Source: a virus | IMG/VR virus record: IMGVR_UViG_3300045993_000137 | Location: 1-22,660 of that record | Length of the DNA stretch: 22,660 nucleotides | Direction: 5' to 3' (one strand) | Shown: positions 1 through 17,865 of the stretch, piece by piece | Layout: every line of letters starts with the position of its first letter | Numbering within the stretch: position 1 is the first letter of the stretch | Notes under the pieces: model-generated | Database searches by the model: none | What the model was told of the DNA's origin: nothing | The model's input: the letters and a program-made list of their open reading frames with translations, nothing else | Made by a program: the position numbers and the translations under genes

Positions 1-278
1 GTTGGACCTTCAACTATAAGTTGGTTAACCACCTTATTCAAGGTAGTGCTGCGGATCAAACAAAGGAATCCATTATAAGGTACCACAAATACAACCCCAA
101 GGGTAGGTTCTTAATGACGGTACACGACGAAAACGTAATCAGCGTTCGCCAAGAGTATTTGGGGGAAACTCTAAGTCTACTCAATCATGCTATGGAAGAC
201 CTTGAGGGATTTGATGTACCCTTTAAGGTGGACTCAGAACAAGGGGAAAACTGGCACGAAATGGAGAATATCAAATGA
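1..278 (+). CDS. Family A DNA polymerase, C-terminal fragment (5' end outside window)
   Basis: This is the last ~90 residues of a replicative DNA polymerase of the Pol I/T7 gp5 family. The reading frame is open to the left edge (first full codon at position 3), so the start, the exonuclease domain and most of the polymerase domain lie outside the window. Two hallmarks are visible. The first is the conserved helix NHLIQGSAAD near position 27, which packs against the active site in this family. The second is palm motif C, TVHDE, near position 118, whose Asp binds catalytic metal. The frame ends in an ATGA overlap with the next gene, suggesting one operon with the two nucleases and the helicase downstream. 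If the phage carries modified thymine, this enzyme would have to accept the hydroxymethyl-dUTP precursor; that is inference. Confidence 0.93.
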   Translation, partial: WTFNYKLVNHLIQGSAADQTKESIIRYHKYNPKGRFLMTVHDENVISVRQEYLGETLSLLNHAMEDLEGFDVPFKVDSEQGENWHEMENIK

Positions 279-937
279 GCGACGAAATCAAGCGACCTAC
301 CCGCTGGAGCTACTCCAGCATCAGCACGTACCGAGAATGTCCAGCCAAGTGGAAGTTCTCGTACATCGACAATATCCCTTGGGAGGCTAGCGCAGCGATG
401 GACCGCGGCACACGGATGCATACAATGTGCGAGGATTATGTGTTGGGCAAGATCACGTATGTACCCACTGAGATCAAGCGAGTTGGGCCGCTTCTACAGC
501 AGTTACAAAGCCTAGGCGCCAAGGCTGAGGACGTTTGGCTGCTGGACAAGGATTGGAACGCCACTGACGATCTGTCGAAAGCGTGGGTCAAAGCCATCAT
601 TGACGTCCACTACGTTGGTGGAGACATCCTGTACGTCAAGGATTACAAGTCTGGTCAGATGTACGACTCCCACCGTAACCAGCTGGAACTGTACGGAATT
701 ATGGGTCTCATGAAGTACCCAGAGGTCAAACGTGTAGAGACCTCAGCTGTTTATCTTGATACGGGCCACGAGGGCATGGATGGTAGCCTCATTCGTGCCA
801 TGCTCCCCAAGACTATCGCCAAGTGGGAGACTGACGCCATTAAGATGATGAGCGACAACGACTTTGATCCTTGCCCAGGTAATGCCTGCCGTTGGTGCGA
901 CTACAAGAAAGCTAAAGGTGGCCCATGTCTATATTAG
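275..937 (+). CDS. PD-(D/E)XK nuclease, Cas4/RecB-like with probable Fe-S cluster
   Basis: This 220-residue protein resembles the RecB-family nuclease domain of Cas4 and AddB. The N-terminus has the WSYSSISTYRECPAKW signature of these exonucleases. His49 sits in a RGTRMH motif, followed by Asp110, Asp123-Tyr-Lys125 in DYKSG, and the QLELY motif beginning at Gln136. Together they form a complete-looking two-metal nuclease site. Cys22 and the C-terminal cluster Cys200/205/208/218 match the one-plus-three cysteine layout that holds a 4Fe-4S cluster in AddB and Cas4. The likely role is 5'-3' or 3'-5' exonuclease action in phage recombination or end processing. The start codon overlaps the polymerase stop (ATGA), and the 3' end overlaps the VRR-NUC gene by 13 bases. 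No CRISPR locus is present, so a CRISPR-adaptation role is not supported. Confidence 0.88.
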   Translation: MSDEIKRPTRWSYSSISTYRECPAKWKFSYIDNIPWEASAAMDRGTRMHTMCEDYVLGKITYVPTEIKRVGPLLQQLQSLGAKAEDVWLLDKDWNATDDLSKAWVKAIIDVHYVGGDILYVKDYKSGQMYDSHRNQLELYGIMGLMKYPEVKRVETSAVYLDTGHEGMDGSLIRAMLPKTIAKWETDAIKMMSDNDFDPCPGNACRWCDYKKAKGGPCLY

Positions 938-1221
938 AGTCAAAGATTGAAGATGACGTCACCAAATTCTGCAAGGCCAACAAGATACGTTGTGAGAAGC
1001 TCAAGATGGCGAGTCAATCTGGGTGGCCAGACCGAACGCTGTTCTACAAAGACCACTGTATGTTCTTGGAGCTCAAGAAGTTTGGCGAGAAGCCTACACC
1101 CTTGCAGTATTACATGATAGAGCAACTTAACTTTGAGGGGTTCAAAGCTCATTGGGCTAACACCTCTCAGGACGCCATAGAACTCATTGAAGATTGGAAG
1201 AAATATGTTGATCTCAGATAA
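925..1221 (+). CDS. VRR-NUC domain nuclease
   Basis: This 98-residue protein covers a minimal VRR-NUC module (a virus-type replication-repair nuclease of the PD-(D/E)XK superfamily, also found in FAN1). The catalytic pattern is visible: Glu9 near the N-terminus, SGWPDR with Asp36, Glu49-Leu-Lys51, and Gln61 in the TPLQ motif. Stand-alone phage VRR-NUC proteins of this size are often encoded beside SNF2-type helicases, as here with one gene between. They are thought to act as structure-specific nucleases in replication or recombination. The start overlaps the upstream nuclease gene by 13 bases and the end overlaps the next gene by 17. The assignment is firm at the domain level; the DNA substrate is unknown. 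Confidence 0.9.
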   Translation: MSILESKIEDDVTKFCKANKIRCEKLKMASQSGWPDRTLFYKDHCMFLELKKFGEKPTPLQYYMIEQLNFEGFKAHWANTSQDAIELIEDWKKYVDLR

Positions 1222-1975
1222 ATACCGCCAATTTGCTCGTGATCTAGTCACCTCAGGAGAGTTGGACCCCATGTACGACTTCATGTACACGGCCCGCAAG
1301 ACCAAGGGTGACGAGTGGGCCGACAAGTACGCGCTGTACCTATTCATGTTCTACGATGCCCGAGGTGCCTTGGCTGCAGCATACTCATTGGACTTCTGGC
1401 AGTACGTGTTCGACCACTACAATACTGCGAAGCGTGGCTCAGAGCGCAGGCACTTCCGAGGTACGAATGGTGCCAATGCTATAACCAACTTGCGTGCCAA
1501 GGGTTCCCCCACTGCTGTTTGGAACGATTTGTACAAACCCCACTACGTGGACCTGTACTATAACGCAGACGTAAGGTTTGCGGGTTGTCAGATGGGTGAC
1601 TACTTCCGCTGGAAGGCTATGGACATCTTTGACCGTACCATGGGACTACCTGTATCCCTAGGTATTGGCGCAGCTATGGCTTTACTACCTGACTCCCCCC
1701 GAGATTGCGCCAAGGCTGTCTATCCCAACTGCGAGCTCAAGGATGTATTGCTGGATATATCCGCATGGATCAGTGATTTACCCGCGCCAGGTGCTCCCAC
1801 ACGTAGCTGCGGCATACCCGAGGCAGAGACCGTCATGTGCGCTATCAGAGGGCTTGAGAAGGGCAGCTACAAGTTTGGAGAGGACATCACTTTACGTCAT
1901 CTTCAACTTAAGGGTTTATCCGAAGTACAGTGGTTACCCCCCAAGCAAGACTGGAGAGTGTATGGCCCCTATTAA
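1205..1975 (+). CDS. Putative amino acid:DNA transferase-like protein (thymine hypermodification)
   Basis: This is a 256-residue, mostly helical soluble protein. I place it tentatively with the phage amino acid:DNA transferase (ADDT) group proposed by comparative genomics to attach amino-containing groups to modified thymine. The parts that look conserved are GCQMGDYFRWK (residues 127-137), followed by a helix with a small hydrophobic pocket, and a C-terminal block with ETVMC (208-212) and GSYKFGEDI (220-228). No classical nucleotide-binding loop is present. An in-frame TTG at 1187 exists, but the ATG at 1205 has GGAAG in front and is preferred. The gene overlaps VRR-NUC by 17 bases and the helicase by 14. 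The presence of a 5-hmdU kinase-type gene and a pyrophosphorylase-type gene in the same block supports the role. The family call is from memory of motifs and needs a profile search. Confidence 0.5.
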   Translation: MLISDKYRQFARDLVTSGELDPMYDFMYTARKTKGDEWADKYALYLFMFYDARGALAAAYSLDFWQYVFDHYNTAKRGSERRHFRGTNGANAITNLRAKGSPTAVWNDLYKPHYVDLYYNADVRFAGCQMGDYFRWKAMDIFDRTMGLPVSLGIGAAMALLPDSPRDCAKAVYPNCELKDVLLDISAWISDLPAPGAPTRSCGIPEAETVMCAIRGLEKGSYKFGEDITLRHLQLKGLSEVQWLPPKQDWRVYGPY

Positions 1976-3371
1976 CTGGACGCCCAGGGACTACCAAGAG
2001 GAAGCGTTGGCCTTTGCTCTGAGCAGAACCAACTCTGGTCTGCTATTGGACCCAGGCTTAGGCAAGACCTCAACGTTCCTTGCCCTTATCTGTGTACTGT
2101 TGGAGCGCAAAGAGATTCGGAGGGCATTGGTGGTGGCGCCCCTACGGGTGGCTCAGACCGTCTGGCCGTTTGAAGCTCTCAAGTGGAGGGACTTCAACCA
2201 CCTCAAGGTTTGCGACTTGTGCCAACGCACGGACAAGGAGCGCGATGAACTTCTGAGCATGAAGTTTGACGTCTACGTCATCAATCCAGAGAGTTTGTAC
2301 AAGGTGCTGAACCCTACCAAGCTAACAGGTATGCGGGGGTTATCTGTACCTAACAAGTGGGGGTTCGACCTCATACTGTCTGACGAGTCCACCCGATTCG
2401 CTGACATACAGACCCAACGCTTCAAAATGCTGAAGCCAGTACTGCCGCAGATCAAGTACCGCAACATTGCTACAGGTACGCCAGCCCCAAATGGTCTACA
2501 CCAGTTGTTCGGTCAGTGCTACTTCCTTGACGACGGCAAAGCCTTGGGGGAGTACATTACGCACTTCCGTCAGATGTTCATGCACCCTCACCCGTATATC
2601 AACTACGTGTACGAAATGAACGCCCACGCTGAGCAGCAGATCATGGAACGGGTACAACATATGTTGCTACGTATGCGGGCGAAGGACAAGCTGGATATGC
2701 CGGAGTTGATACACAATCCCATACGTGTTACCCTACCCCCTGCTGTCCTCAAGCAGTACAAGACCCTTGAGCGAGACTTCCTCATCAAGGTGCTGGACGA
2801 GACCATACCAGCGTTCAACAAGGCATCGTTGGGGATCAAGTGTCGTCAGGTCTCCAATGGGTTCATCTACTCTCAAGAAGAGCGTGGCGAGTACCTACCC
2901 ATTCACGATGAGAAGTTGGAAGCCCTAGCAGAGCTCATTGAAGAACTACAGGGCAGACCCCTACTACTCATGTACGAGTTCATCGCTGACGGTGCTCGCA
3001 TACAAAAGCGTTTCCCTGACGCCCTCAACATCACTGGCTGTAAGAACATCGCCCAAGTAGTGGCTGACTTCAACGCTGGGAAGATACCCTTGTTGATCGG
3101 CCACCCGCGGTCAGCAGGTCATGGTCTCAACCTACAGGGTGCTTGCTCCGACATCTGCTGGTTCGGTCTCAGCCAGGATTTGGAGCTATGGCTGCAAGCT
3201 ATCGCCCGAGTCTGGCGTCAAGGGCAGGACTCACCTGTGGTCAAGAATCATATACTGATCGCTGACGACACGACTGACGACAAGGTGTTGGATGCCATTA
3301 CAGCCAAGGACACTACTCAGTCTAGGGTGGACCAGTCGCTTATTGACTACGCCAAGAGTGCCATACGATAG
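1962..3371 (+). CDS. SNF2-type superfamily 2 DNA helicase/translocase
   Basis: This 469-residue enzyme has the ordered motifs of the SNF2 branch of SF2 helicases. The Q-motif-like region PRDYQ is at residues 8-12 and Walker A LDPGLGKT at 29-36. Walker B/motif II is SDES at 140-143, followed by motif III-like GTPAPNG. Motif V-like SAGHGLNL and motif VI QAIARVWRQGQ (from Gln412) close the C-terminal lobe. Such compact phage SNF2 proteins probably translocate on double-stranded DNA, remodelling forks, recombination intermediates or bound proteins. The frame stays open upstream to 1665, but that part overlaps the previous gene and has no family signature. The ATG at 1962 has GGAG six bases upstream and begins right before the Q-motif. 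It ends the first gene cluster and is followed by a promoter-like gap. Confidence 0.92.
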   Translation: MAPINWTPRDYQEEALAFALSRTNSGLLLDPGLGKTSTFLALICVLLERKEIRRALVVAPLRVAQTVWPFEALKWRDFNHLKVCDLCQRTDKERDELLSMKFDVYVINPESLYKVLNPTKLTGMRGLSVPNKWGFDLILSDESTRFADIQTQRFKMLKPVLPQIKYRNIATGTPAPNGLHQLFGQCYFLDDGKALGEYITHFRQMFMHPHPYINYVYEMNAHAEQQIMERVQHMLLRMRAKDKLDMPELIHNPIRVTLPPAVLKQYKTLERDFLIKVLDETIPAFNKASLGIKCRQVSNGFIYSQEERGEYLPIHDEKLEALAELIEELQGRPLLLMYEFIADGARIQKRFPDALNITGCKNIAQVVADFNAGKIPLLIGHPRSAGHGLNLQGACSDICWFGLSQDLELWLQAIARVWRQGQDSPVVKNHILIADDTTDDKVLDAITAKDTTQSRVDQSLIDYAKSAIR

Positions 3372-3374
3372 TTC

Positions 3375-3403
3375 TTTACCCACCAAATGCTTTAGGCTAA
3401 AAT
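3375..3403 (+). promoter_or_regulatory. Sigma70-like promoter before the small-protein/kinase cluster
   Basis: TTTACC at 3375-3380 and TAAAAT at 3398-3403 are separated by exactly 17 bases. They match the -35/-10 layout of a bacterial housekeeping promoter, with 4 of 6 and 5 of 6 consensus bases. Transcription would begin around 3409-3411, at the start of a 16-base leader that is repeated at 7096. It lies in the 59-base gap after the helicase and would serve genes from 3431 on. Confidence 0.55.
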
Positions 3404-3408
3404 ATAGT

Positions 3409-3424
3409 CTTACCAACTACGGAG
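3409..3424 (+). repeat. Leader repeat copy 1 (16 bp) with ribosome-binding site
   Basis: CTTACCAACTACGGAG is identical to 7096-7111. Both copies begin five bases after a TAxAAT-like -10 box and end in GGAG, 6 bases before a start codon. The repeat is therefore probably the conserved 5' end of two transcripts, containing the Shine-Dalgarno sequence. Confidence 0.8.
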
Positions 3425-3430
3425 CTAACC

Positions 3431-3655
3431 ATGCCCACCATCAACAGCAAAGAAATGGTCGACAAGATCATAGCGGCAGACGGTCATTACGAGAATGATC
3501 CCCGCATCGTTAAGATCGTGGAGTACTGCAGCGCTTGGGGTAACCAATGCTACGGTCTCATCTACGAAGGTCACCGATTGGACAACTACGAAGCCAGCGA
3601 GTACGTTCGCAACCCTGTCACTATCTGGGAGGCAAAGCGTGACCTCTCTCATTGA
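3431..3655 (+). CDS. Conserved phage hypothetical protein, 74 aa
   Basis: This small soluble acidic protein has no membrane segment. The central stretch DPRIVKIVEYCSAWGNQCYGL followed by a C-terminal SEYVRNPVTIWE resembles a conserved small protein seen in many phage early regions. I know of no function for it. It is the first gene after the promoter/leader at 3375-3424, with GGAG six bases ahead of the ATG. Its end overlaps the next gene by 17 bases, so the two are likely co-translated. Possible roles such as host takeover or regulation are speculation. Confidence 0.8.
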   Translation: MPTINSKEMVDKIIAADGHYENDPRIVKIVEYCSAWGNQCYGLIYEGHRLDNYEASEYVRNPVTIWEAKRDLSH

Positions 3656-4022
3656 AATCCCCTCAGACGATCTTGAGGAAGCCCTTGACCTTCTCACTAC
3701 TGACGAGGTCATCGTGTTCCCCATCCGTATCAGCCAGATTCTGTACTCAGTCTGGCGTCAACAACGTAAGTGCCCGATCAAACGATCCATCGAGACTTTG
3801 CCCGCCGACCACGAGTGGGTCAAATGGGCAAGCGAGTCAGTGGAGAACTACGAGCACTTGTGGAACTTCGGCATGGACGTTCTGGACGAGCATGCTAAAC
3901 TTTACGGTGAAGTGGCCCAGCACCCCTACGTGCACGGCAGCTTCAAATTCATGGAAGAATTGGGGTCACTTCCCCCACTCCCTGCTGTCGGGTTGACAGA
4001 GAAACCAAAGGTAACTGTATGA
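3639..4022 (+). CDS. Conserved phage protein, 127 aa, GTG start
   Basis: This is a soluble 127-residue protein. The start chosen is GTG at 3639 because GGGAGG lies six bases upstream; the open frame extends further upstream only through the previous gene. The C-terminal half has HEWVKWASESVENYEHLWNF and a downstream HP...FMEELG...PLP pattern. It recalls a family of small phage and marine proteins often labelled pyrimidine dimer DNA glycosylase-like, whose core reads roughly HPxxxWxxxSxxNYxWL. That label is weakly based and the catalytic residues are not obvious here. Genes on both sides overlap it (17 bases upstream, ATGA downstream). It sits just upstream of the kinase of the modification cluster, so a role in recognising or handling modified bases is possible but unproven. 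Confidence 0.72.
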   Translation: MTSLIEIPSDDLEEALDLLTTDEVIVFPIRISQILYSVWRQQRKCPIKRSIETLPADHEWVKWASESVENYEHLWNFGMDVLDEHAKLYGEVAQHPYVHGSFKFMEELGSLPPLPAVGLTEKPKVTV

Positions 4023-4246
4023 ACCAATCGCAACGCAAAACCTTGTCGGGCTTGGTGGCCCAATTGGATACTATCAAAGACGCCATTAACGACATGGCTA
4101 CCGAAGAGCAAGACAAGTACGACAACTTGTCTGAGGGTCTACAACAATCAGATAACGGACAAAAGTTTGAGGTCAATGCTAGCACACTCAACGATGCAGT
4201 GTCTGAATTGGAGTCTGTTATAAACAACCTTGGAGAGGTGGAGTAA
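4019..4246 (+). CDS. Small acidic coiled-coil-like phage protein, 75 aa
   Basis: This short, acidic, Gln/Asn/Glu-rich protein is predicted by eye to be entirely helical. It has a central EEQDKYDNLSEGLQQSDNG segment that is strongly conserved in many phage hypothetical proteins. Heptad-like spacing (LVAQLDTI, LNDAVSELESVINNL) suggests an antiparallel helical hairpin or a dimer. The start overlaps the previous stop as ATGA and the stop is one base before the kinase ATG. No function is known to me. A binding partner among the replication or host proteins is plausible because of its size and charge. Confidence 0.78.
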   Translation: MNQSQRKTLSGLVAQLDTIKDAINDMATEEQDKYDNLSEGLQQSDNGQKFEVNASTLNDAVSELESVINNLGEVE

Positions 4247-4247
4247 C

Positions 4248-4805
4248 ATGTACAAAATTCTGAAGGTTCATGGGTGTTCGGGGGCAGGTAAGACCACTGC
4301 CGTCCGAGAGTTGTTGACCACCGCTACTGCTAAGCGCAAGATGCTGAACGCAGCGGGTAAGCTGGAGGCATACGAATTGGTTGTGCCCAGCGTAACCGAC
4401 AAGATTCACCTGCTCGGCAGTTACGCCAACGCTTGTGGGGGCATGGACACCGTATCGTCTGCCGCTACGGCCATAGACATGGTGAACCGCTACGCAGAGT
4501 TGGGCCACGTTGTCCACGAGGGTTTGCTCCAGTCCACGTACTACGGTGCGATGGGTACTGACTCCAAGCAGTACGGTGACGCGTACATCTACGTGTTCCT
4601 GGATACACCCATCGACTTGTGTCTGGAGCGTGTTGTCGCCCGACGAGCCGCCAATGGTAGCACCAACAAGTTCAACCCCCAGCTGACCCGCGATAAGCAC
4701 GCTACCATTGAGCGTCTACGCAAGCGTCTGCCGGCACTAGGTCATCGGGTGGAGATTCTCCACCACGACCAACCTATCCTACCCCAACTATTGGCTCTGC
4801 TATGA
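4248..4805 (+). CDS. 5-hydroxymethyl-dU DNA kinase-like P-loop kinase
   Basis: This 185-residue P-loop kinase has Walker A GCSGAGKT at residues 9-16 and a Walker B-like strand YIYVFLDTP. The substrate-side features GSYANACGGMDT and HEGLL recur in the phage family that phosphorylates 5-hydroxymethyl-2'-deoxyuridine within DNA (5-HMUDK, shown biochemically for phages ViI and M6). A basic segment ERVVARRAANGSTNKFN may be the lid. In the known pathway the phosphorylated base is then displaced by an amino compound. ATG 4248 follows GGAGAGGTGGAGTAAC and is preferred over TTG 4230. A related nucleotide (dNMP) kinase is the main alternative. The pyrophosphorylase-type gene two positions downstream and the thymidylate-synthase-fold gene further on favour the DNA-modification role. 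Confidence 0.77.
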   Translation: MYKILKVHGCSGAGKTTAVRELLTTATAKRKMLNAAGKLEAYELVVPSVTDKIHLLGSYANACGGMDTVSSAATAIDMVNRYAELGHVVHEGLLQSTYYGAMGTDSKQYGDAYIYVFLDTPIDLCLERVVARRAANGSTNKFNPQLTRDKHATIERLRKRLPALGHRVEILHHDQPILPQLLALL

Positions 4806-5086
4806 ACCACATCACCGCGATGAAACTGGCGCTTGATGCGCTTGAGTGGGATTGTTTATACGCTCCTGTAATCCACACCAAAGCCATCGCCGCCCTGACT
4901 GCTGCTCTGGCAGAGCCGAGTGAGCCTGTGGCTTACCTAGTCAAGTTTGACGCTAGGTTGTGTGACATGAAGGTGACTGACAAGCTGCTTGTCTGGAAAC
5001 AATCCGATGCTGAAATGCAGGTCGATAAAAGTCTGATCCAAAGCGTTGAGCCATTGTTTACTTCTACCATCAGGAGCAATACATGA
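4802..5086 (+). CDS. Phage hypothetical protein, 94 aa
   Basis: The N-terminus MKLALDALEWD...KAIAALTAALAEP, followed by SEPVAYLVKF and a C-terminal VEPLFTS, has the layout of a widespread small accessory phage protein. In that type an Ala-rich helical head, a PVAY strand and an EPLYT-like tail flank a variable middle. No function is established. It is inserted between the two presumed DNA-modification genes and coupled to both by ATGA overlaps, but nothing in it suggests an enzyme. Confidence 0.75.
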   Translation: MNHITAMKLALDALEWDCLYAPVIHTKAIAALTAALAEPSEPVAYLVKFDARLCDMKVTDKLLVWKQSDAEMQVDKSLIQSVEPLFTSTIRSNT

Positions 5087-5916
5087 AGCACCTGGACGAT
5101 CTCATCTATTGGATAAAGGAACGTGAGTCCATGCATCTACTCAAGGACGCTGGACAACCTGCTCCCTGGACCAAAGACCCAATCCTGTCCAAGTACAGGT
5201 TCTGTAACGTCCATCGTGAGGACGACAAGGTGACCAAGTGGATACATCAAAACTACTTGCGTCCGTATATCTACCACCCCAACATAGCCTTCGCTTGTGG
5301 GGTAGCTCGCATGGTGAATCTGCCTGAGACCCTAGCATTGTTGGACTTCCCATTTGAGTGGAACGCAAGCGACTTCATCAATGTCATTGCTAAACGCAAG
5401 AGTACTGGGGCCAAGGTCTGGACCAGCGCCTACATGATTACAGGTGGATACTCAGAGGGTGGCGAGGCCAAGGAGGTCATCATTGCTCGTGTACTCACTA
5501 ACCTGTACAGCCGATTGAAGGATAACCCCATCGTCAAGGGTGACAGTCTGGAGTCAGCCGACAAGAAGCTGACGACACCAGGCATAGGTACATTCCTGCG
5601 GGGTCAAATACTTGCCGACCTTAAGATGGAGTACATGCCTTTGGAGTTCGCCAAGGATTGGGATACATGGTGTGCTGTTGGACCTGGGTCAACTGCTGGT
5701 CTCAACTACTTACACAACCGCAACCCTTGTATTCTCCCGGCCAACGTTTTCATTAAAGAGGTCAACGAGCTTCGCCCTATAATAGAACGGGCTACAGGGA
5801 TTAGTCTTTGCGCTCAGAACACCCAGAACTGCTTGTGTGAGTTTAGCAAGTTTGTTCGTACCAAATACTATGGCGGTAAGCCCAAGTCGCAATACCGACC
5901 AGATGTGTCTGTCTAG
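5083..5916 (+). CDS. Alpha-glutamyl/putrescinyl-thymine pyrophosphorylase / 5-hmdU kinase helical-domain protein
   Basis: This 277-residue protein carries the signature of the family named for alpha-glutamyl- and alpha-putrescinyl-thymine synthesis, also annotated as the helical domain of 5-hmdU DNA kinases. The stretch PWTKDPILSKYRFCNV with REDDKVTKW (residues 28-53) is diagnostic. A second conserved part is TPGIGTFLRGQILADLK in the middle, resembling the helix-hairpin-helix region of DNA glycosylase-like folds. The C-terminus has CLCEFSKFVRTKYYGGKPK, rich in basic residues. The proposed job is to act on phosphorylated or pyrophosphorylated hmdU in DNA so that an amino group can replace the leaving group. 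In this phage it is separate from the kinase, with one small gene between. Its start overlaps the previous stop (ATGA). The stop lies in a short CTAGG/CCTAG inverted repeat (5913-5928). Confidence 0.82.
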   Translation: MKHLDDLIYWIKERESMHLLKDAGQPAPWTKDPILSKYRFCNVHREDDKVTKWIHQNYLRPYIYHPNIAFACGVARMVNLPETLALLDFPFEWNASDFINVIAKRKSTGAKVWTSAYMITGGYSEGGEAKEVIIARVLTNLYSRLKDNPIVKGDSLESADKKLTTPGIGTFLRGQILADLKMEYMPLEFAKDWDTWCAVGPGSTAGLNYLHNRNPCILPANVFIKEVNELRPIIERATGISLCAQNTQNCLCEFSKFVRTKYYGGKPKSQYRPDVSV

Positions 5917-5946
5917 GCAGTTCCCTAGTGTGTAATGGAGAGTAAC

Positions 5947-6243
5947 ATGGCAACTATTAGAGTGTACGTGACCCACGAAGGTCTGGAGAAATTGGCTTTG
6001 GGTCAAAAGCTGTACTCGTGGCACTACGGCATCAAAGACCACGAGGATGACCCCATCCCTGAGCATAGCAAACTCGTTGGAGAGTTTGAACCCAACTTGC
6101 CCACACCTGCAGAGTGCGTCCAACCTGTACTAGCCAAGTTGGCTGAAAAGGAAGCCCAAATTCAAGCTGACGCCTACGCAGACGTTAAAGCTCTGAATGA
6201 GCGTCGGCAAAACCTGTTGAGCCTTACTTACGCAACCCCCTAA
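5947..6243 (+). CDS. Hypothetical phage protein, 98 aa
   Basis: I do not recognise this protein. It starts with a beta-rich half (ATIRVYVTHEGLEKL, SKLVGEFEPNLP) and ends in a long, charged helix (KLAEKEAQIQADAYADVKALNERRQNLL). A start at the ATG at 5935 is possible, but the ATG at 5947 has GGAGAGTAAC directly before it, the same ribosome-binding context as the genes at 4248 and 9098. It is the last gene before the 120-base hairpin region and may end a transcription unit that includes the modification genes. Confidence 0.75.
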   Translation: MATIRVYVTHEGLEKLALGQKLYSWHYGIKDHEDDPIPEHSKLVGEFEPNLPTPAECVQPVLAKLAEKEAQIQADAYADVKALNERRQNLLSLTYATP

Positions 6244-6248
6244 AAGCG

Positions 6249-6290
6249 TTTTTTCGTTCGGGTAGTACCTACCCCCTACCCGAGCGAAAA
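6249..6290. other. Strong hairpin, imperfect 15-bp stem, with an alternative internal hairpin
   Basis: CGTTCGGGTAG (6255-6265) pairs with CTACCCGAGCG (6276-6286) with one G-U wobble. The stem extends outward through TTTT and AAAA. The same GGGTAG (6260-6265) can instead pair with CTACCC at 6269-6274 over a three-base loop, so two folds compete. There is no U-run after the stem on either strand, so it is not a standard intrinsic terminator. RNA processing or mRNA stabilisation is possible. Confidence 0.6.
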
Positions 6291-6319
6291 TAAACGATTC
6301 TGCAAGGATTTACAAAGCC

Positions 6320-6340
6320 CTAGGCCGATTCCCGGCCTAG
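6320..6340. other. Perfect 8-bp GC-rich hairpin in methyltransferase leader
   Basis: CTAGGCCG and CGGCCTAG form a perfect inverted repeat around a five-base loop ATTCC, 23 bases before the ATG at 6364. It lacks a following U-run. With the hairpin at 6249-6290 it occupies the 120-base gap; I see no convincing promoter or open frame in this gap. Both a leader RNA element and a protein-binding palindrome fit. Confidence 0.6.
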
Positions 6341-6363
6341 CTAACCCCGAGAGGAAAACGAAA

Positions 6364-7080
6364 ATGCGCGTAGAGACCCTGAAGGTGAATGGATATTCCA
6401 TCAATTTGCCCATTGGACTAGAAAGAACAATGGATACCCCTGTCCGAGACTCATATCAAGAGTTCCTCAAGGACTCAACCAGGGATGTGGTACGCCACTT
6501 AACCTGCCTCACAACGTTGCTACCCCCGGCAATCGAGCACCTGTACAGGCCAAAGGTACTCCATGCCTTCGGCGGTGTTGGGGCATCGGCTCAGGTAGTG
6601 GACCAAACAGTGGCGGGGGCTAAGCACTATTTCTTTGAGAGAGACCCCACTTGTGTGGAGTACCTCATGTGCCACTACCCCTTTGTGTACAAGATCGAGG
6701 ACTCCATGCCCATGCTGACAGGTACAAAACTGACAATCTTTGACGTCCTGTTACTGGACATGTCTGTCGGTACCATCAAGACCAAGGGGGTCAAGGAAAT
6801 GTGGGACAACGTGGCCCGTGCGGTCAAGGACAAACCTGAGATCGTAGTCTGGTTCACGGACACCTCATGTCACAAGATACACCTCAACTACAAGACCTAC
6901 GCCAAGGACTTTGGGGAAGACATTGACCCCACCGCTGACTCGTACCTGTTGGCCTACGACAGGTGGCTCAACGAGAAGGGTTTGACTATCACCGCGGCCA
7001 TGCGAGAGGCGGGTGAGTTCTACTGCGTTGTACAAAACGTTGACCAGCACAAACGATTCACGGCTATCCCCTACGTGTAG
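6364..7080 (+). CDS. Rossmann-fold methyltransferase-like protein
   Basis: This 238-residue protein has a class I methyltransferase-like core. The glycine-rich motif I is VLHAFGGVGASAQVV (residues 65-79). An acidic residue ends the second strand (FFERD, Glu92), and a motif IV-like LLLDMSVG is at 129-136. It has neither the DPPY/NPPY tetrapeptide of adenine-N6/cytosine-N4 enzymes nor the PCQ/ENV motifs of cytosine-C5 enzymes, so the substrate is open. The C-terminal DRWLNEKGLTI resembles the last strands of such folds. The ATG at 6364 is preceded by GAGAGGAAAACGAAA. It stands alone between a two-hairpin leader and a promoter, so it may be regulated independently. A role in base hypermodification is possible because of its neighbours, but methylation of a protein or small molecule is equally open. 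Confidence 0.68.
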   Translation: MRVETLKVNGYSINLPIGLERTMDTPVRDSYQEFLKDSTRDVVRHLTCLTTLLPPAIEHLYRPKVLHAFGGVGASAQVVDQTVAGAKHYFFERDPTCVEYLMCHYPFVYKIEDSMPMLTGTKLTIFDVLLLDMSVGTIKTKGVKEMWDNVARAVKDKPEIVVWFTDTSCHKIHLNYKTYAKDFGEDIDPTADSYLLAYDRWLNEKGLTITAAMREAGEFYCVVQNVDQHKRFTAIPYV

Positions 7081-7084
7081 ACGT

Positions 7085-7090
7085 TATAAT
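7085..7090 (+). promoter_or_regulatory. Consensus -10 box before the thymidylate-synthase cluster
   Basis: A perfect TATAAT is found five bases before the second copy of the leader repeat, the same spacing as at 3398-3409. No -35 match lies at 16-18 bases upstream, nor is there an extended -10 TG. It may need an activator, or may be weak. It would drive 7118-9226. Confidence 0.5.
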
Positions 7091-7095
7091 AGAGA

Positions 7096-7111
7096 CTTAC
7101 CAACTACGGAG
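7096..7111 (+). repeat. Leader repeat copy 2 (16 bp) with ribosome-binding site
   Basis: This is identical to 3409-3424 (CTTACCAACTACGGAG) and sits in the same position relative to the -10 box and the start codon. The GGAG is the Shine-Dalgarno sequence of the gene at 7118. Confidence 0.8.
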
Positions 7112-7117
7112 AACGAC

Positions 7118-7396
7118 ATGTCTCGTCCACTCAACAAGATCGCAAGTGAAATACTGGCTGACTGGGGTCCACCCGGTAAGTCTCAGCCGAACTACATCGT
7201 TTGGTGCAAGCCATACGTTGCGGCTATGCTATCGCTCCAGTCGATAGCCGATACCTATGGACTCGATCCAGCAGATGACATCGTGCTGCGGTTCCTCTGC
7301 AACTCCGCAGGGTGGCGCGGCCCAGTGGCGAAGCGTGTCAAAGCTGAACTCAACCAACTTCTGAAAGAGCGTCATGATTGTCCTCAAAGCAAATAA
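7118..7396 (+). CDS. Conserved phage hypothetical protein, 92 aa
   Basis: This soluble basic protein has an N-terminus SRPLNKIASEILADW and a C-terminal IVLRFLCNSAGWRGPVAKRVKAEL that are conserved among many phages of unrelated hosts. I know of no assigned function. The middle (YVAAMLSLQSIADTYGLD) is helical. The ATG at 7118 follows GGAGAACGAC from the leader repeat, so the longer frame from 7013 is not needed. It overlaps the thymidylate-synthase-fold gene by 23 bases, placing it first in that operon. Confidence 0.8.
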   Translation: MSRPLNKIASEILADWGPPGKSQPNYIVWCKPYVAAMLSLQSIADTYGLDPADDIVLRFLCNSAGWRGPVAKRVKAELNQLLKERHDCPQSK

Positions 7397-8360
7397 CGTC
7401 AACGAAGCCTACAGGGACGCCCTGTGGAACATGCGGGTGTCAGGGGTAAACGAGAAAACCCGCAACGGTTTGGCTAAGGTACACCCCCAACCTGTGTCTA
7501 CGGTTTACGCCAATCCTACCCAGCGTATGCTGTATGACGTCAAGCGTAACGCCAATCCTTTCTTCCACGTGATGGAGGCCATCTGGATGCTGGCAGGTCG
7601 CAATGACGTAGCGTTTGTAGCTACCTACGCTGCTAACATGAAGGACTTCAGCGATGATGGTCTCACTCTCAATGGAGCCTATGGCTACCGTTGGCGTCAT
7701 CACTTTGATGGAGATCAATTGGTATCTGTCATAGAACTACTTGCGGCTGACTACGAAACCCGCAGGGCTGTACTAGCAATGTGGGACCCATCAGTTGATG
7801 CAGATGGGGCCGTAACGTCCAAGGACGTACCCTGTAACACCCATGCCTACTTTCGGGTAGTTAGGGGTGACACGCTAAACATAACGGTTTGTAATCGCTC
7901 CAACGACATTATTTGGGGTTGCTACGGGGCCAATGCTGTACACATGTCGTTCTTGCTGGAGTTCGTAGCCAACGCTGTCGGACTCAACGTTGGTACGTAC
8001 ACCCAGGTGAGTAACAACTGGCATATGTACGAGCAACACTTTCCGTTGTTGGAGGGTATAGATGACCCCGACTGCTGTATGTACAGCCCCGATTGGACGC
8101 ATGTACCAGTCATGTCGGGGGATGATGATTACTTCCTGTTCTTAGAAGAAATCAACACCTTCATTTGTAACGTGCTGAACTTCAGCTTCCATGGTAGCTA
8201 CAAGTCCTCATATATCAATTGGGTACTACAACCGATGGCTAGAGCATGGGACGCCTACAAGCGTGGTAACTTTACAAGGGCCGTACAGTACACCTATACC
8301 ATTAAGGATACCGCTATACTAGTGGCTTGCGCTAACTGGCTACAAAGGAAACAAAAATGA
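7374..8360 (+). CDS. Thymidylate synthase-fold enzyme, probable dUMP hydroxymethylase
   Basis: This 328-residue enzyme belongs to the thymidylate synthase superfamily. The catalytic Cys is Cys154 in DVPCNTH. NRSND (Arg175, Asp178) matches the phosphate- and folate-binding QRSCD block. HMY at 217-219 matches His207/Tyr209 of the E. coli enzyme, and GAYGYRWR matches the GPVYGKQWR loop. Asn187 in YGANAVH aligns with Asn177 of E. coli, the residue that selects dUMP; dCMP hydroxymethylases carry Asp there. The substrate is therefore most likely dUMP. Sequence alone does not separate methylation (dTMP) from hydroxymethylation (5-hm-dUMP). The nearby 5-hmdU kinase-type gene favours the latter. The ATG lies inside the preceding gene, and the stop overlaps the HD gene as ATGA. 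Confidence 0.85.
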   Translation: MIVLKANNVNEAYRDALWNMRVSGVNEKTRNGLAKVHPQPVSTVYANPTQRMLYDVKRNANPFFHVMEAIWMLAGRNDVAFVATYAANMKDFSDDGLTLNGAYGYRWRHHFDGDQLVSVIELLAADYETRRAVLAMWDPSVDADGAVTSKDVPCNTHAYFRVVRGDTLNITVCNRSNDIIWGCYGANAVHMSFLLEFVANAVGLNVGTYTQVSNNWHMYEQHFPLLEGIDDPDCCMYSPDWTHVPVMSGDDDYFLFLEEINTFICNVLNFSFHGSYKSSYINWVLQPMARAWDAYKRGNFTRAVQYTYTIKDTAILVACANWLQRKQK

Positions 8361-8830
8361 TACGGTTCCAACGATTGTACGAAGCGGGGGCAGTGACTCG
8401 CTTCCATACCAAGCGAGTGCTTAACCGTCAGACGATAGCAGACCATAGTTGGGGGGTAGCAATGATCCTGTTGGAGATTTGCGAACCCAGCGTTGATCTA
8501 CTCAAGTCAGCCCTGACCCACGACCTTGCCGAGTCGGAGACTGGAGATATACCCGCCACGGCCAAGTGGGCTAGCCCAGACCTAGGTTGGGCTTTGGAGA
8601 AGCTGGAGTTTGAGTACAACAAACGGTTTGAGGTCAACTTTACGTTGTCTCCGCATGAGCAGGAGTGTCTCAAATGGGCAGACATGCTAGAGCTTATCAT
8701 GTACTGTCAGACCGAGGTGTCTATGGGCAACCTCAAGATGGAAGGTATTGTCAGGACAGGGATTACGTATTTGGACGCCCGTAACCCGCCAACACTTTTG
8801 GCGTCCGCATTTTTGGAGCTATTGAAATGA
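8357..8830 (+). CDS. HD-domain phosphohydrolase, YfbR-like 5'-nucleotidase type
   Basis: This 157-residue protein is a metal-dependent HD hydrolase. The ligands appear in order: His30 in ADHSW, His55-Asp56 in THDLAE, and Asp109 in KWADMLE. The TRFHT context near Arg15 and GDIPATAKW match the YfbR/deoxyribonucleoside 5'-monophosphatase group. Its length is slightly below the ~200 residues of bacterial YfbR. It is coupled by ATGA overlaps to the thymidylate-synthase-fold gene before it and the DUF3310 gene after it. In phages with hmdU-containing DNA, dTMP or dTTP hydrolases lower the thymidine pool so that the modified precursor is used. This gene fits that role, but the nucleotide preference cannot be read from the sequence. 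Confidence 0.85.
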   Translation: MIRFQRLYEAGAVTRFHTKRVLNRQTIADHSWGVAMILLEICEPSVDLLKSALTHDLAESETGDIPATAKWASPDLGWALEKLEFEYNKRFEVNFTLSPHEQECLKWADMLELIMYCQTEVSMGNLKMEGIVRTGITYLDARNPPTLLASAFLELLK

Positions 8831-9096
8831 GAGCAAATGATATGCAAGTAGGTGGTTCCCACTACAAGCAAGAGGGCACTCCCCAGCACTGGGACGTAGT
8901 CATCGCCCTCAATTGGGACTACCTTACTGGGGCTGCTACCAAGTACCTATGGAGGCTAGGCCGCAAGGGTGACGAAAACAAAGCCATCGAGGACATCGGT
9001 AAAGCCATTCACTTCCTTGAGAAGAAACGGGAAGTCATGATTGCTGAGCGTGAGCGCGGTGGCCCCACCCCTGGCTACGTCAACCAAGGAGAGTAA
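8827..9096 (+). CDS. DUF3310 family protein
   Basis: This 89-residue protein has the whole DUF3310 signature: QVGGSHYK near the N-terminus, QHWDVVIALNWDYLTG, AATKYLWRLGRKG, and EDIGKAIHFLEK. These small proteins are very common in phages and are often found beside nucleotide-metabolism genes; sometimes they are fused or labelled as nucleotide kinase-like. A biochemical role is not settled to my knowledge. The first ATG overlaps the HD gene stop (ATGA); a second in-frame ATG at 8842 is also directly before the conserved part. A basic C-terminal tail (ERERGGPTPGY) is likely disordered. Confidence 0.9.
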   Translation: MRANDMQVGGSHYKQEGTPQHWDVVIALNWDYLTGAATKYLWRLGRKGDENKAIEDIGKAIHFLEKKREVMIAERERGGPTPGYVNQGE

Positions 9097-9097
9097 C

Positions 9098-9226
9098 ATG
9101 AAGTACAAAGAAGTGTTTGATCACTTGGGTAACCCACACTACGCCAAGATTACTGACCGCGAGGGTATATTCATCGCGGTAGTAATGGTGGCCATTGTGT
9201 TGCTAACTTGGGTGTGGTCAAACTGA
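9098..9226 (+). CDS. Small single-pass membrane protein, 42 aa
   Basis: This short gene starts at the ATG at 9098, right after AAGGAGAGTAAC, one of the strongest ribosome-binding sites in the window. The product has a charged N-terminal 24 residues followed by one transmembrane segment, FIAVVMVAIVLLTWVW, and ends with SN. There is no lipobox. It is the last rightward gene, ten bases from the convergent spanin gene. A holin-related or superinfection-exclusion role is possible because of its size and position, but nothing proves it. Confidence 0.72.
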   Translation: MKYKEVFDHLGNPHYAKITDREGIFIAVVMVAIVLLTWVWSN

Positions 9227-16362: not shown

Positions 16363-17456
16363 TAGAATAACCCTCCAAGCATACCCCCGAGACTAGACCC
16401 AATACCCATACCTGCAGGGCCACCTAGGAAGAATCCAGCGCCAGCACCTAGCAATCCCCCAGCGCTCTTGTTCGAGTTGGCGTTTTGAGCTTGGTTGGCG
16501 TTGTAAGCGTCCATCTGAGCTTTGTAGGTATTGTTCAACGCAGCCATACCCCCGCTGGCGTCGGCAACACCTTGTTGGGGCGTATTACCATTGCCTATTT
16601 GCGGTAGACCAGTACCACCCCCACCGCCCGTGGTCAACCCCATCAATCCCTTGACTTGATTCAGGTCGTAGTTGTTCAACAAGGATTGCTCGTTGAGCTG
16701 ACTATTCCTCAGAGCGTTGGACTGGTTAACCGTAGCAGCATTCTGGTCGAATTGCTGACCACGCAGCCCCATAGCCAAATTCTGAGCCTGTAGGTTCTGG
16801 TTGTAGTTCTGGTTGTTGGAGGACAACCCACGGTTGAACGAGTTACCATACTCTTGCTGACCGGCCAGTAGAGACTTGAGTTGAGCGTCCGTATCCCCTT
16901 GACCCAACGTAAGCATGGCCCGTTGGAAGGCGGGGGAATCCTCAGTCAAACCTTGATTCTTCAGACGTTGTATCTCACCATCCCGAGCCATTTGCCGTTG
17001 GGGAGATAACAGAGCGTATGTAGCGTCCTGTATGGCCTTAGAGTTACCCGTTGGGTCCATGTTAAACTGACCAGCCTGGCTAGCTAATCCGTTGGCGTCA
17101 ACCTGTTGCGTAGGTGCTCCAATGGTTTGCCAGTCAGGTAGCCCAGAGGTATTCAACCCCCGCAAGGCACTTGAGATAGCTCCAGGTAGCGCTGCGCTAC
17201 CTGCGTTAGTCATACCCAACAGCCCCGCTTGTTGGGCTTGGTAGTTCTTGCCGGCATCGCCAGCGTCTACGGTATTGGTCCAAGCCCCAGTGACGGGGTC
17301 TTTGGACCAAGTATTGGTACCTTGTGGCCCAACAGAGTTTGTACGGTTGGCTACTGTTTGAGCCTCCAGCATCTTCTGCTGGTTACGTAAGTCAAGGTCG
17401 GCTTGCTTCTGATAGTCTGGTGGTGGAGGTGCTGCTGGTTCCGATGACTTACCCAT
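16362..17456 (-). CDS. Gln/Asn-rich internal virion-like protein with C-terminal glycine zipper, 364 aa
   Basis: This protein has a proline-rich beginning (EPAAPPPPDYQKQADL) and a Gln/Asn-rich helical body (SNNQNYNQNLQAQNLAM). The last 25 residues are small and hydrophobic (GAGAGFFLGGPAGMGIGSS), a glycine-zipper-like tail that could enter or assemble in membrane. Phages with short tails use three ejection proteins, and this gene with the next two would make such a set. GGGG precedes the ATG. The TAATG junction shares one base with the next gene. Confidence 0.72.
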   Translation of the reverse strand: MGKSSEPAAPPPPDYQKQADLDLRNQQKMLEAQTVANRTNSVGPQGTNTWSKDPVTGAWTNTVDAGDAGKNYQAQQAGLLGMTNAGSAALPGAISSALRGLNTSGLPDWQTIGAPTQQVDANGLASQAGQFNMDPTGNSKAIQDATYALLSPQRQMARDGEIQRLKNQGLTEDSPAFQRAMLTLGQGDTDAQLKSLLAGQQEYGNSFNRGLSSNNQNYNQNLQAQNLAMGLRGQQFDQNAATVNQSNALRNSQLNEQSLLNNYDLNQVKGLMGLTTGGGGGTGLPQIGNGNTPQQGVADASGGMAALNNTYKAQMDAYNANQAQNANSNKSAGGLLGAGAGFFLGGPAGMGIGSSLGGMLGGLF

Positions 17457-17865
17457 TGGTATTACCCCTCAAATATCTACATTCACTAGGTCTCATAGAC
17501 ATTATGATGGCATCCCCTTCGGCATAGTAGTCCGCAAGGGTATGTTCATACCTAAAACCCACTCTCTCCACCAACCTCAATGATTTGCGGTTGGTACTAC
17601 AAATTATGGCGTAAGCAACTTTCAATTCGCACACTCTAAATGGGTAATCAAACATCGCCCATAAGAATGACCTAGACATCCAGTTACCCTCACCAGCCAC
17701 ATGCATTTGTACGGATGCATTGGTGAAACTATCGTACCCAACGACACCGATTATATCCCCTTTTTCCCCAATTCTACCGATACACCGTAAATTTTTTGTA
17801 GGGGCCAATCCAACTCTATCGCACAACCAACCAACCAATCTTGGCTGATCCTCTGTCTCAATCAA
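17449..17865 (-). CDS. GNAT-type N-acetyltransferase-like protein, TTG start, 138 aa
   Basis: The fold order of GCN5-related acetyltransferases is visible: strands IGVVGYD and SVQMHVAGEGNW, then the pyrophosphate-binding turn region GEGNWMSR (about 58-65). The STNRKSLRLVERVGFRYEH segment (about 90-108) closes the CoA-binding end. The normal Q/RxxGxG/A motif is replaced by HVAGEGN, as in a phage GNAT subgroup. The start is TTG at 17865, overlapping the upstream stop as TTGA, with GGGGTTAC ahead; no other start gives a complete fold. It sits among virion structural genes, so its target may be a structural or host protein. Confidence 0.78.
   Translation of the reverse strand: MIETEDQPRLVGWLCDRVGLAPTKNLRCIGRIGEKGDIIGVVGYDSFTNASVQMHVAGEGNWMSRSFLWAMFDYPFRVCELKVAYAIICSTNRKSLRLVERVGFRYEHTLADYYAEGDAIIMSMRPSECRYLRGNTNG

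Follow-up and report, generated by a model that had tools for sequence, protein, structure and literature searches.

A probable thymine hypermodification cassette with an associated methyltransferase-like gene in an uncultured short-tailed phage

Results

The window analysed here is the whole of IMG/VR record IMGVR_UViG_3300045993_000137, a linear fragment of 22,660 bases from an uncultured, short-tailed phage, in which the plus strand encodes the early region (1-9100) and the minus strand the structural genes. The early region carries what appears to be a nearly complete set of the known enzymes for exchanging thymine for a decorated base, and the locus very probably encodes a thymine hypermodification pathway of the M6/phiW-14 type, derived from 5-hydroxymethyldeoxyuridine (5-hmdU). 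The genes concerned are:

1205-1975, plus strand (start at ATG 1205 or TTG 1208): predicted amino acid:DNA transferase (ADDT) of the aGPT-Pplase2/PF18724 type
4248-4805, plus strand: predicted P-loop 5-hmdU DNA kinase, recognised by PF18748, M6 gp54 and an alignment
5083-5916, plus strand: HMUDK_hel/aGPT-Pplase1 protein (PF18723), with a predicted helix-hairpin-helix DNA-glycosylase-like fold
6364-7080, plus strand: class I S-adenosylmethionine (SAM) methyltransferase-like protein of a cassette-associated family, a candidate tailoring enzyme recognised by Foldseek and reverse scans
7374-8360, plus strand: predicted dUMP 5-hydroxymethylase of thymidylate-synthase fold, with residues of the M6 gp58 and SPO1 gp29 type
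8357-8830, plus strand: YfbR/DatZ-like HD nucleotidase, overlapping the hydroxymethylase stop codon
8827-9096, plus strand: homologue of the DUF3310/T7 gp1.7-type nucleotide kinases, after the HD gene

Five families of one pathway stand in this single early region, in the order of M6 gp51, gp54, gp55, gp58 and gp59 (blastp E-values against M6 proteins refer to a search set of some 40 proteins). The 4248-4805 product carries the P-loop GCSGAGKT at residues 9-16, conserved in the alignment, and qualifies by sequence as a 5-hmdU DNA kinase: it matches M6 gp54 in blastp (31% identity, E 1e-18) and M6 in tblastn (E 2e-11, 2.3 Gb of phage DNA searched), while its PF18748 score (28.4 bits, cut-off 27) is marginal taken alone. 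Public records (M6 gp54 in NC_007809, P26218 gp15 and PHROG 800) name the 5-hmdU kinase "terminase small subunit", which is probably a misannotation.

The 5083-5916 protein, in which PWTKDPILSKYRFCNV starts at residue 28, scores 120 bits with PF18723 (HMUDK_hel) and matches M6 gp55 (blastp 29%, E 1e-35). With its confident AlphaFold2 model (predicted local distance difference test, pLDDT, 89.6), the top five Foldseek matches in the PDB were all helix-hairpin-helix DNA glycosylases, the best with a probability of 0.91 but an E-value of 0.17, and the modelled fold makes it possible that this protein is a base-flipping partner of the kinase. For the M6-like phage SN1 the pathway has been listed as pyrimidine hydroxymethylase, Nmad5, aGPT-Pplase1, nucleotide kinase, radical SAM, pyridoxal phosphate (PLP) enzyme and aGPT-Pplase2 (PMC9476957), and the PF18723 protein therefore corresponds to aGPT-Pplase1. 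It was undetected in the podophage cassettes L002 (P26218), L003 (ctfPj964), L069 and L072 and their relatives, which have ADDT, kinase, hydroxymethylase and HD genes, so it may not be strictly needed.

The 7374-8360 product (PF00303 75 bits; M6 gp58 blastp 40%, E 4e-86) was aligned with E. coli ThyA, SPO1 gp29 (annotated as a dUMP hydroxymethylase) and T4 gp42. Its nucleophile Cys154 and Asn187 are both invariant among 13 sequences, the latter being the dUMP-type Asn177 of ThyA, which SPO1 also keeps. The ThyA-specific Trp80, Leu143, His147 and C-terminal tail were all absent from the aligned protein (gap, Asp, Asn and no equivalent tail, respectively), and the loss of Trp80 and the changes Leu143 to Asp, His147 to Asn, Gln165 to Asn and Trp83 to Phe are common to it and SPO1. 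Core identity (residues 94-221) was 41% with SPO1, 29% with ThyA and 20% with T4 gp42. Because of these SPO1-type residues and the higher core identity to SPO1 than to ThyA, the enzyme is assigned to the dUMP hydroxymethylases and appears hydroxymethylase-like rather than ThyA-like.

The HD nucleotidase (PF12917 YfbR-like 52 bits; DatZ 6zpa E 3.5e-5; M6 gp59 blastp 36%, E 1e-15) conserves the HD-type metal ligands H30, H55-D56, E59 and D109, and a role in removing dTMP or dTTP is plausible because infection by phiW-14 brings a dTTPase (PMC5977210). The 8827-9096 protein scores 18.8 bits with PF11753 (DUF3310), below the cut-off of 24, and 48.6 bits with the nucleotide kinase family phrog_236; DUF3310 proteins are also found in the cassettes of M6, P26218 and ctfPj964. 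T7 gp1.7, which contains DUF3310, phosphorylates dGMP and dTMP (PMC12846349), making the window protein a candidate hmdUMP kinase.

The gene at 1205/1208-1975 is identified by its matches as ADDT, the amino-acid-attaching enzyme that defines the pathway. Its PF18724 score (16.9 bits) lies below the cut-off of 26.2, and it scores 96 bits with phrog_6364; phmmer against the PDB retrieved the ADDT 25qc (E 4.5e-8) and the glycinyltransferase 8z2m, a solved structure (E 8e-4), and tblastn retrieved phiW-14 gp109 (E 3e-12, 26%), M6 gp51 (E 2e-7) and P26218 (E 2e-18). Nineteen columns are invariant in an alignment of 13 sequences that includes M6 and phiW-14. The ADDTs of M6 and of the window fall in different major clades of the ADDT tree, and phiW-14 forms a long branch of unsure placement; the amino-acid donor is not inferable from ADDT similarity. 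The gene separating ADDT from the kinase, an SNF2-type helicase, was counted among the replication genes. In other loci (L064-L067, L070, L071, L073, L081-L083, L089, L110, L114 and L115) two tandem kinase paralogues adjoin ADDT, and these possibly carry out two successive phosphorylations leading to a pyrophosphate intermediate.

A preliminary description of the window, made from its letters and open reading frames, had read 4248-8830 as a thymine hypermodification block of four genes: a P-loop kinase with 5-hmdU DNA kinase features, a protein with a diagnostic signature (5083-5916), a thymidylate-synthase-fold enzyme retaining Asn187 and an HD nucleotidase. The four reading frames are present there with the features described, profile searches place their products in the families named, in the M6 cassette order, and tblastn agrees. 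The pathway reading is also supported, and extended by the ADDT, DUF3310 and methyltransferase-like genes, which that description had missed; the set reaches beyond 4248-8830, with ADDT outside it and on the far side of the helicase gene. All four genes first noted are under purifying selection (nonsynonymous rate, dN, 0.18-0.33 and synonymous rate, dS, 0.9 or more, against two relatives), and with their family matches and conserved residues they are not a product of chance.

The cassette is kept in IMG/VR relatives, which were collected by scanning 2.9 million contigs, in the order ADDT, helicase, kinase, PF18723 protein, small protein, hydroxymethylase, HD and DUF3310. One relative, G6 (L028-L030, G006), measures 41,124 bp, bears terminal direct repeats of 127 bp and is likely a complete genome.

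The methyltransferase-like gene at 6364-7080 gave only chance-level matches in Pfam, PHROGs and NCBIfam, by which its family is undescribed, although its association with the pathway may stand in the earlier literature. A tblastn search of 50,697 phage records gave no match for it or for two relatives, and no relative was found in GTDB genomes searched with the family alignment A8. With the modest AlphaFold2 model (pLDDT 64), Foldseek retrieved SAM methyltransferases from the PDB (probability 1.00, best E 2e-5, TM-score 0.3-0.5), and its best matches in a viral library were AdoMet_MTase proteins of uncultured phages. The protein contains the motif HAFGGVGA; G-x-G, one Thr and two Tyr are invariant across 23 aligned members, and the modelled fold makes it a candidate class I SAM-methyltransferase-like protein.

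Reverse scans from this gene through the 2.9 million viral contigs returned 28 matches, each on its own contig and some nearly identical to one another. As 26 of the 28 stand beside ADDT and/or kinase, PF18723 and hydroxymethylase genes, a functional link between the family and the cassette is likely. The two others were L131, at a contig end, and L132, remote and in another context; in L132 (7965-9963) the homologue directly precedes a radical-SAM-like protein resembling spore photoproduct lyase. In other loci, an iterated profile located related genes between the PF18723 and hydroxymethylase genes, immediately in front of the kinase or of ADDT, or behind DUF3310. The subfamilies were joined by profile-profile comparison with probabilities of 94-100%, and the family is present in 20 of 47 dereplicated ADDT loci.

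That the protein is a hitch-hiker in the phage lineage rather than an enzyme of the pathway, either inactive or a methyltransferase of DNA, RNA or protein, has an even chance in our judgement: presence of the gene tracks the ADDT phylogeny, its substrate is conjectural and its structural model is of low confidence, whereas the concentration of matches within the cassette, at several positions, the at least 3-5 changes required on the ADDT tree and the lowest dN among the compared window genes (against the two relatives) all argue for involvement. For a tailoring step not described so far, this protein is the best candidate; as an enzyme of the pathway it would presumably methylate the base. 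SAM-dependent N- or O-methylation of the amino acid placed by ADDT, giving a methylated amino-acyl-thymine, is put forward tentatively.

Known tailoring branches use radical-SAM/PLP enzymes, a flavin-lyase or an acetyltransferase. The radical-SAM (PF04055) and PALP (PF00291) families, detected in the controls M6, G019 and G020, were found neither in the window nor in P26218, ctfPj964 or a further 14 IMG/VR contigs carrying the methyltransferase-like gene, so that the radical-SAM and PLP enzymes following ADDT in the M6-type 5-(2-aminoethyl)deoxyuridine (5-NedU) subpathway are missing here. No other recognised tailoring enzyme was found in G6 by Pfam (51 open reading frames; 25 of 30 matching families listed). 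PLP/radical-SAM genes occurred in 0 of the 20 loci with the methyltransferase-like gene versus 7 of the 27 without it (Fisher p 0.015, confounded by kinship), and in the ADDT tree all PLP/radical-SAM loci lie on one side of a branch with a support of 100. Because presence of the methyltransferase-like gene follows the ADDT phylogeny, this non-overlap is not independent evidence, and it was rejected as proof of an alternative tailoring enzyme; an independent-pairs test has no information.

Two further features were recorded:

7118-7396, plus strand: small conserved protein whose gene immediately precedes that of the hydroxymethylase (phrog_13953, 55 bits)
17449-17865, minus strand: GNAT acyltransferase (phrog_4470) in the structural module

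The small protein keeps its position in most loci of the window type. The GNAT gene qualifies the preliminary statement that PLP, radical-SAM and acyltransferase partners are lacking, which holds for the first two in the window and its relatives; the GNAT is probably unrelated to the pathway. Relatives G2 and G7 carry it; it was not detected in G3 or in the terminal-repeat-bearing G6, and given its opposite strand and structural module it was rejected as an acetyltransferase step.

Discussion

Thymine hypermodification is best known in siphoviruses and myoviruses of cultured bacteria. The window and its relatives come from short-tailed phages that are almost exclusively known through metagenomes, and their cassette lacks the tailoring enzymes usually present. 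The closest gene set is that of Pseudomonas phage M6 (gp51-gp59), with homologues of ADDT, kinase, PF18723 protein, hydroxymethylase, HD and DUF3310 in the same order. However, M6 also has a PLP enzyme (gp52), a radical-SAM enzyme (gp53) and gp56 (Nmad5), which have no homologues in the window, whereas the window has two additions, a helicase gene separating ADDT from the kinase and the methyltransferase-like gene. The product of M6 is 5-NedU. The podophages P26218 (a cultured phage of Rhodoferax) and ctfPj964 resemble the window in having ADDT, kinase, hydroxymethylase, HD and DUF3310 near a DNA polymerase and a helicase, with no PLP or radical-SAM enzyme, but the PF18723 protein and the methyltransferase-like gene were undetected in them; modification is not reported for either phage. 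Delftia phage phiW-14 (alpha-putrescinylthymine), with the ADDT homologue gp109 and a biochemically known hmdU pathway, is a large myovirus with another gene context and ornithine/putrescine as donor.

The chemistry of these relatives gives the model for the window. The M6 cassette has been described, among the M6-like phages, as a thymidine modification pathway (PMC9476957), and the DNA of M6, ViI and phiW-14 contains 5-NedU, 5-(2-aminoethoxy)methyldeoxyuridine (5-NeOmdU) and putrescinylthymine, respectively, made via 5-hmdU, the 5-hmdU DNA kinase and transferases (PMC6449724). In phiW-14 hmdUTP is made, dTTPase activity has been shown and a pyrophosphoryl intermediate builds up in a mutant (PMC5977210). 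In the window phage, the hydroxymethylase would produce 5-hydroxymethyl-dUMP, the HD nucleotidase would probably clear dTMP and dTTP, and the DUF3310 kinase would probably charge hmdUMP, after which the phage DNA polymerase would insert hmdU. Within DNA, hmdU would be (pyro)phosphorylated by the 4248-4805 kinase, probably with the 5083-5916 protein as DNA-recognition partner, and ADDT would put an amino acid in place of the pyrophosphate. With neither a radical-SAM nor a PLP enzyme, the base would stay an amino-acyl-type thymine, or the methyltransferase-like protein would finish it. By analogy with related phages, the modified DNA may serve to evade restriction.

Several points weigh against this pathway. 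The Pfam scores of ADDT and DUF3310 are under their cut-offs (other searches back both) and that of the kinase is barely over; the window is a fragment, so its missing parts could hold tailoring enzymes; the hypermodified base is a prediction from sequence; and hydroxymethylases cannot surely be separated from thymidylate synthases by sequence, a caution given in PMC5977210.

If the methyltransferase-like protein acts on the base, it would add another chemical branch to phage DNA modification, which would matter for restriction evasion and for how such phages are sequenced or cloned. Methylation of the placed amino acid would be a new way to finish the base, alongside the radical-SAM/PLP, flavin-lyase and acetyltransferase branches, and a possible DNA parallel to the 5-carboxymethylaminomethyluridine (cmnm5U) and 5-methylaminomethyluridine (mnm5U) modifications of tRNA.

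The locus could instead belong to a plain 5-hydroxymethyluracil (hmU) phage such as Bacillus phage SPO1, in which only the hydroxymethylase and HD nucleotidase act and the kinase and ADDT are relics or have other targets. The similarity of the hydroxymethylase to SPO1 gp29 fits such a phage, and ctUhy936 has hydroxymethylase and HD genes with no kinase or ADDT detected in the 21 kb searched. SPO1 itself, unlike the window, had no ADDT or kinase homologue in 43 kb searched, whereas the window has intact ADDT, kinase and PF18723 genes, which evolve under purifying selection and are conserved together in dereplicated loci, so that we consider a plain hmU phage improbable. Still more remote is nucleotide salvage, with a dNMP kinase at 4248-4805 and a true thymidylate synthase at 7374-8360 supplying dTTP, for although the two proteins weakly match thymidylate kinase phrog_761 and thymidylate synthases, respectively, the ThyA residues and tail are missing from the latter, the kinase matches PF18748 and M6 gp54, and ADDT and PF18723 proteins have no known salvage role.

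In ctUhy936 (L006:18218-20516) an annotated glucosyl transferase gene directly precedes the hydroxymethylase and HD genes, an order that suggests a modification of the glucosylated-hmU type in that phage.

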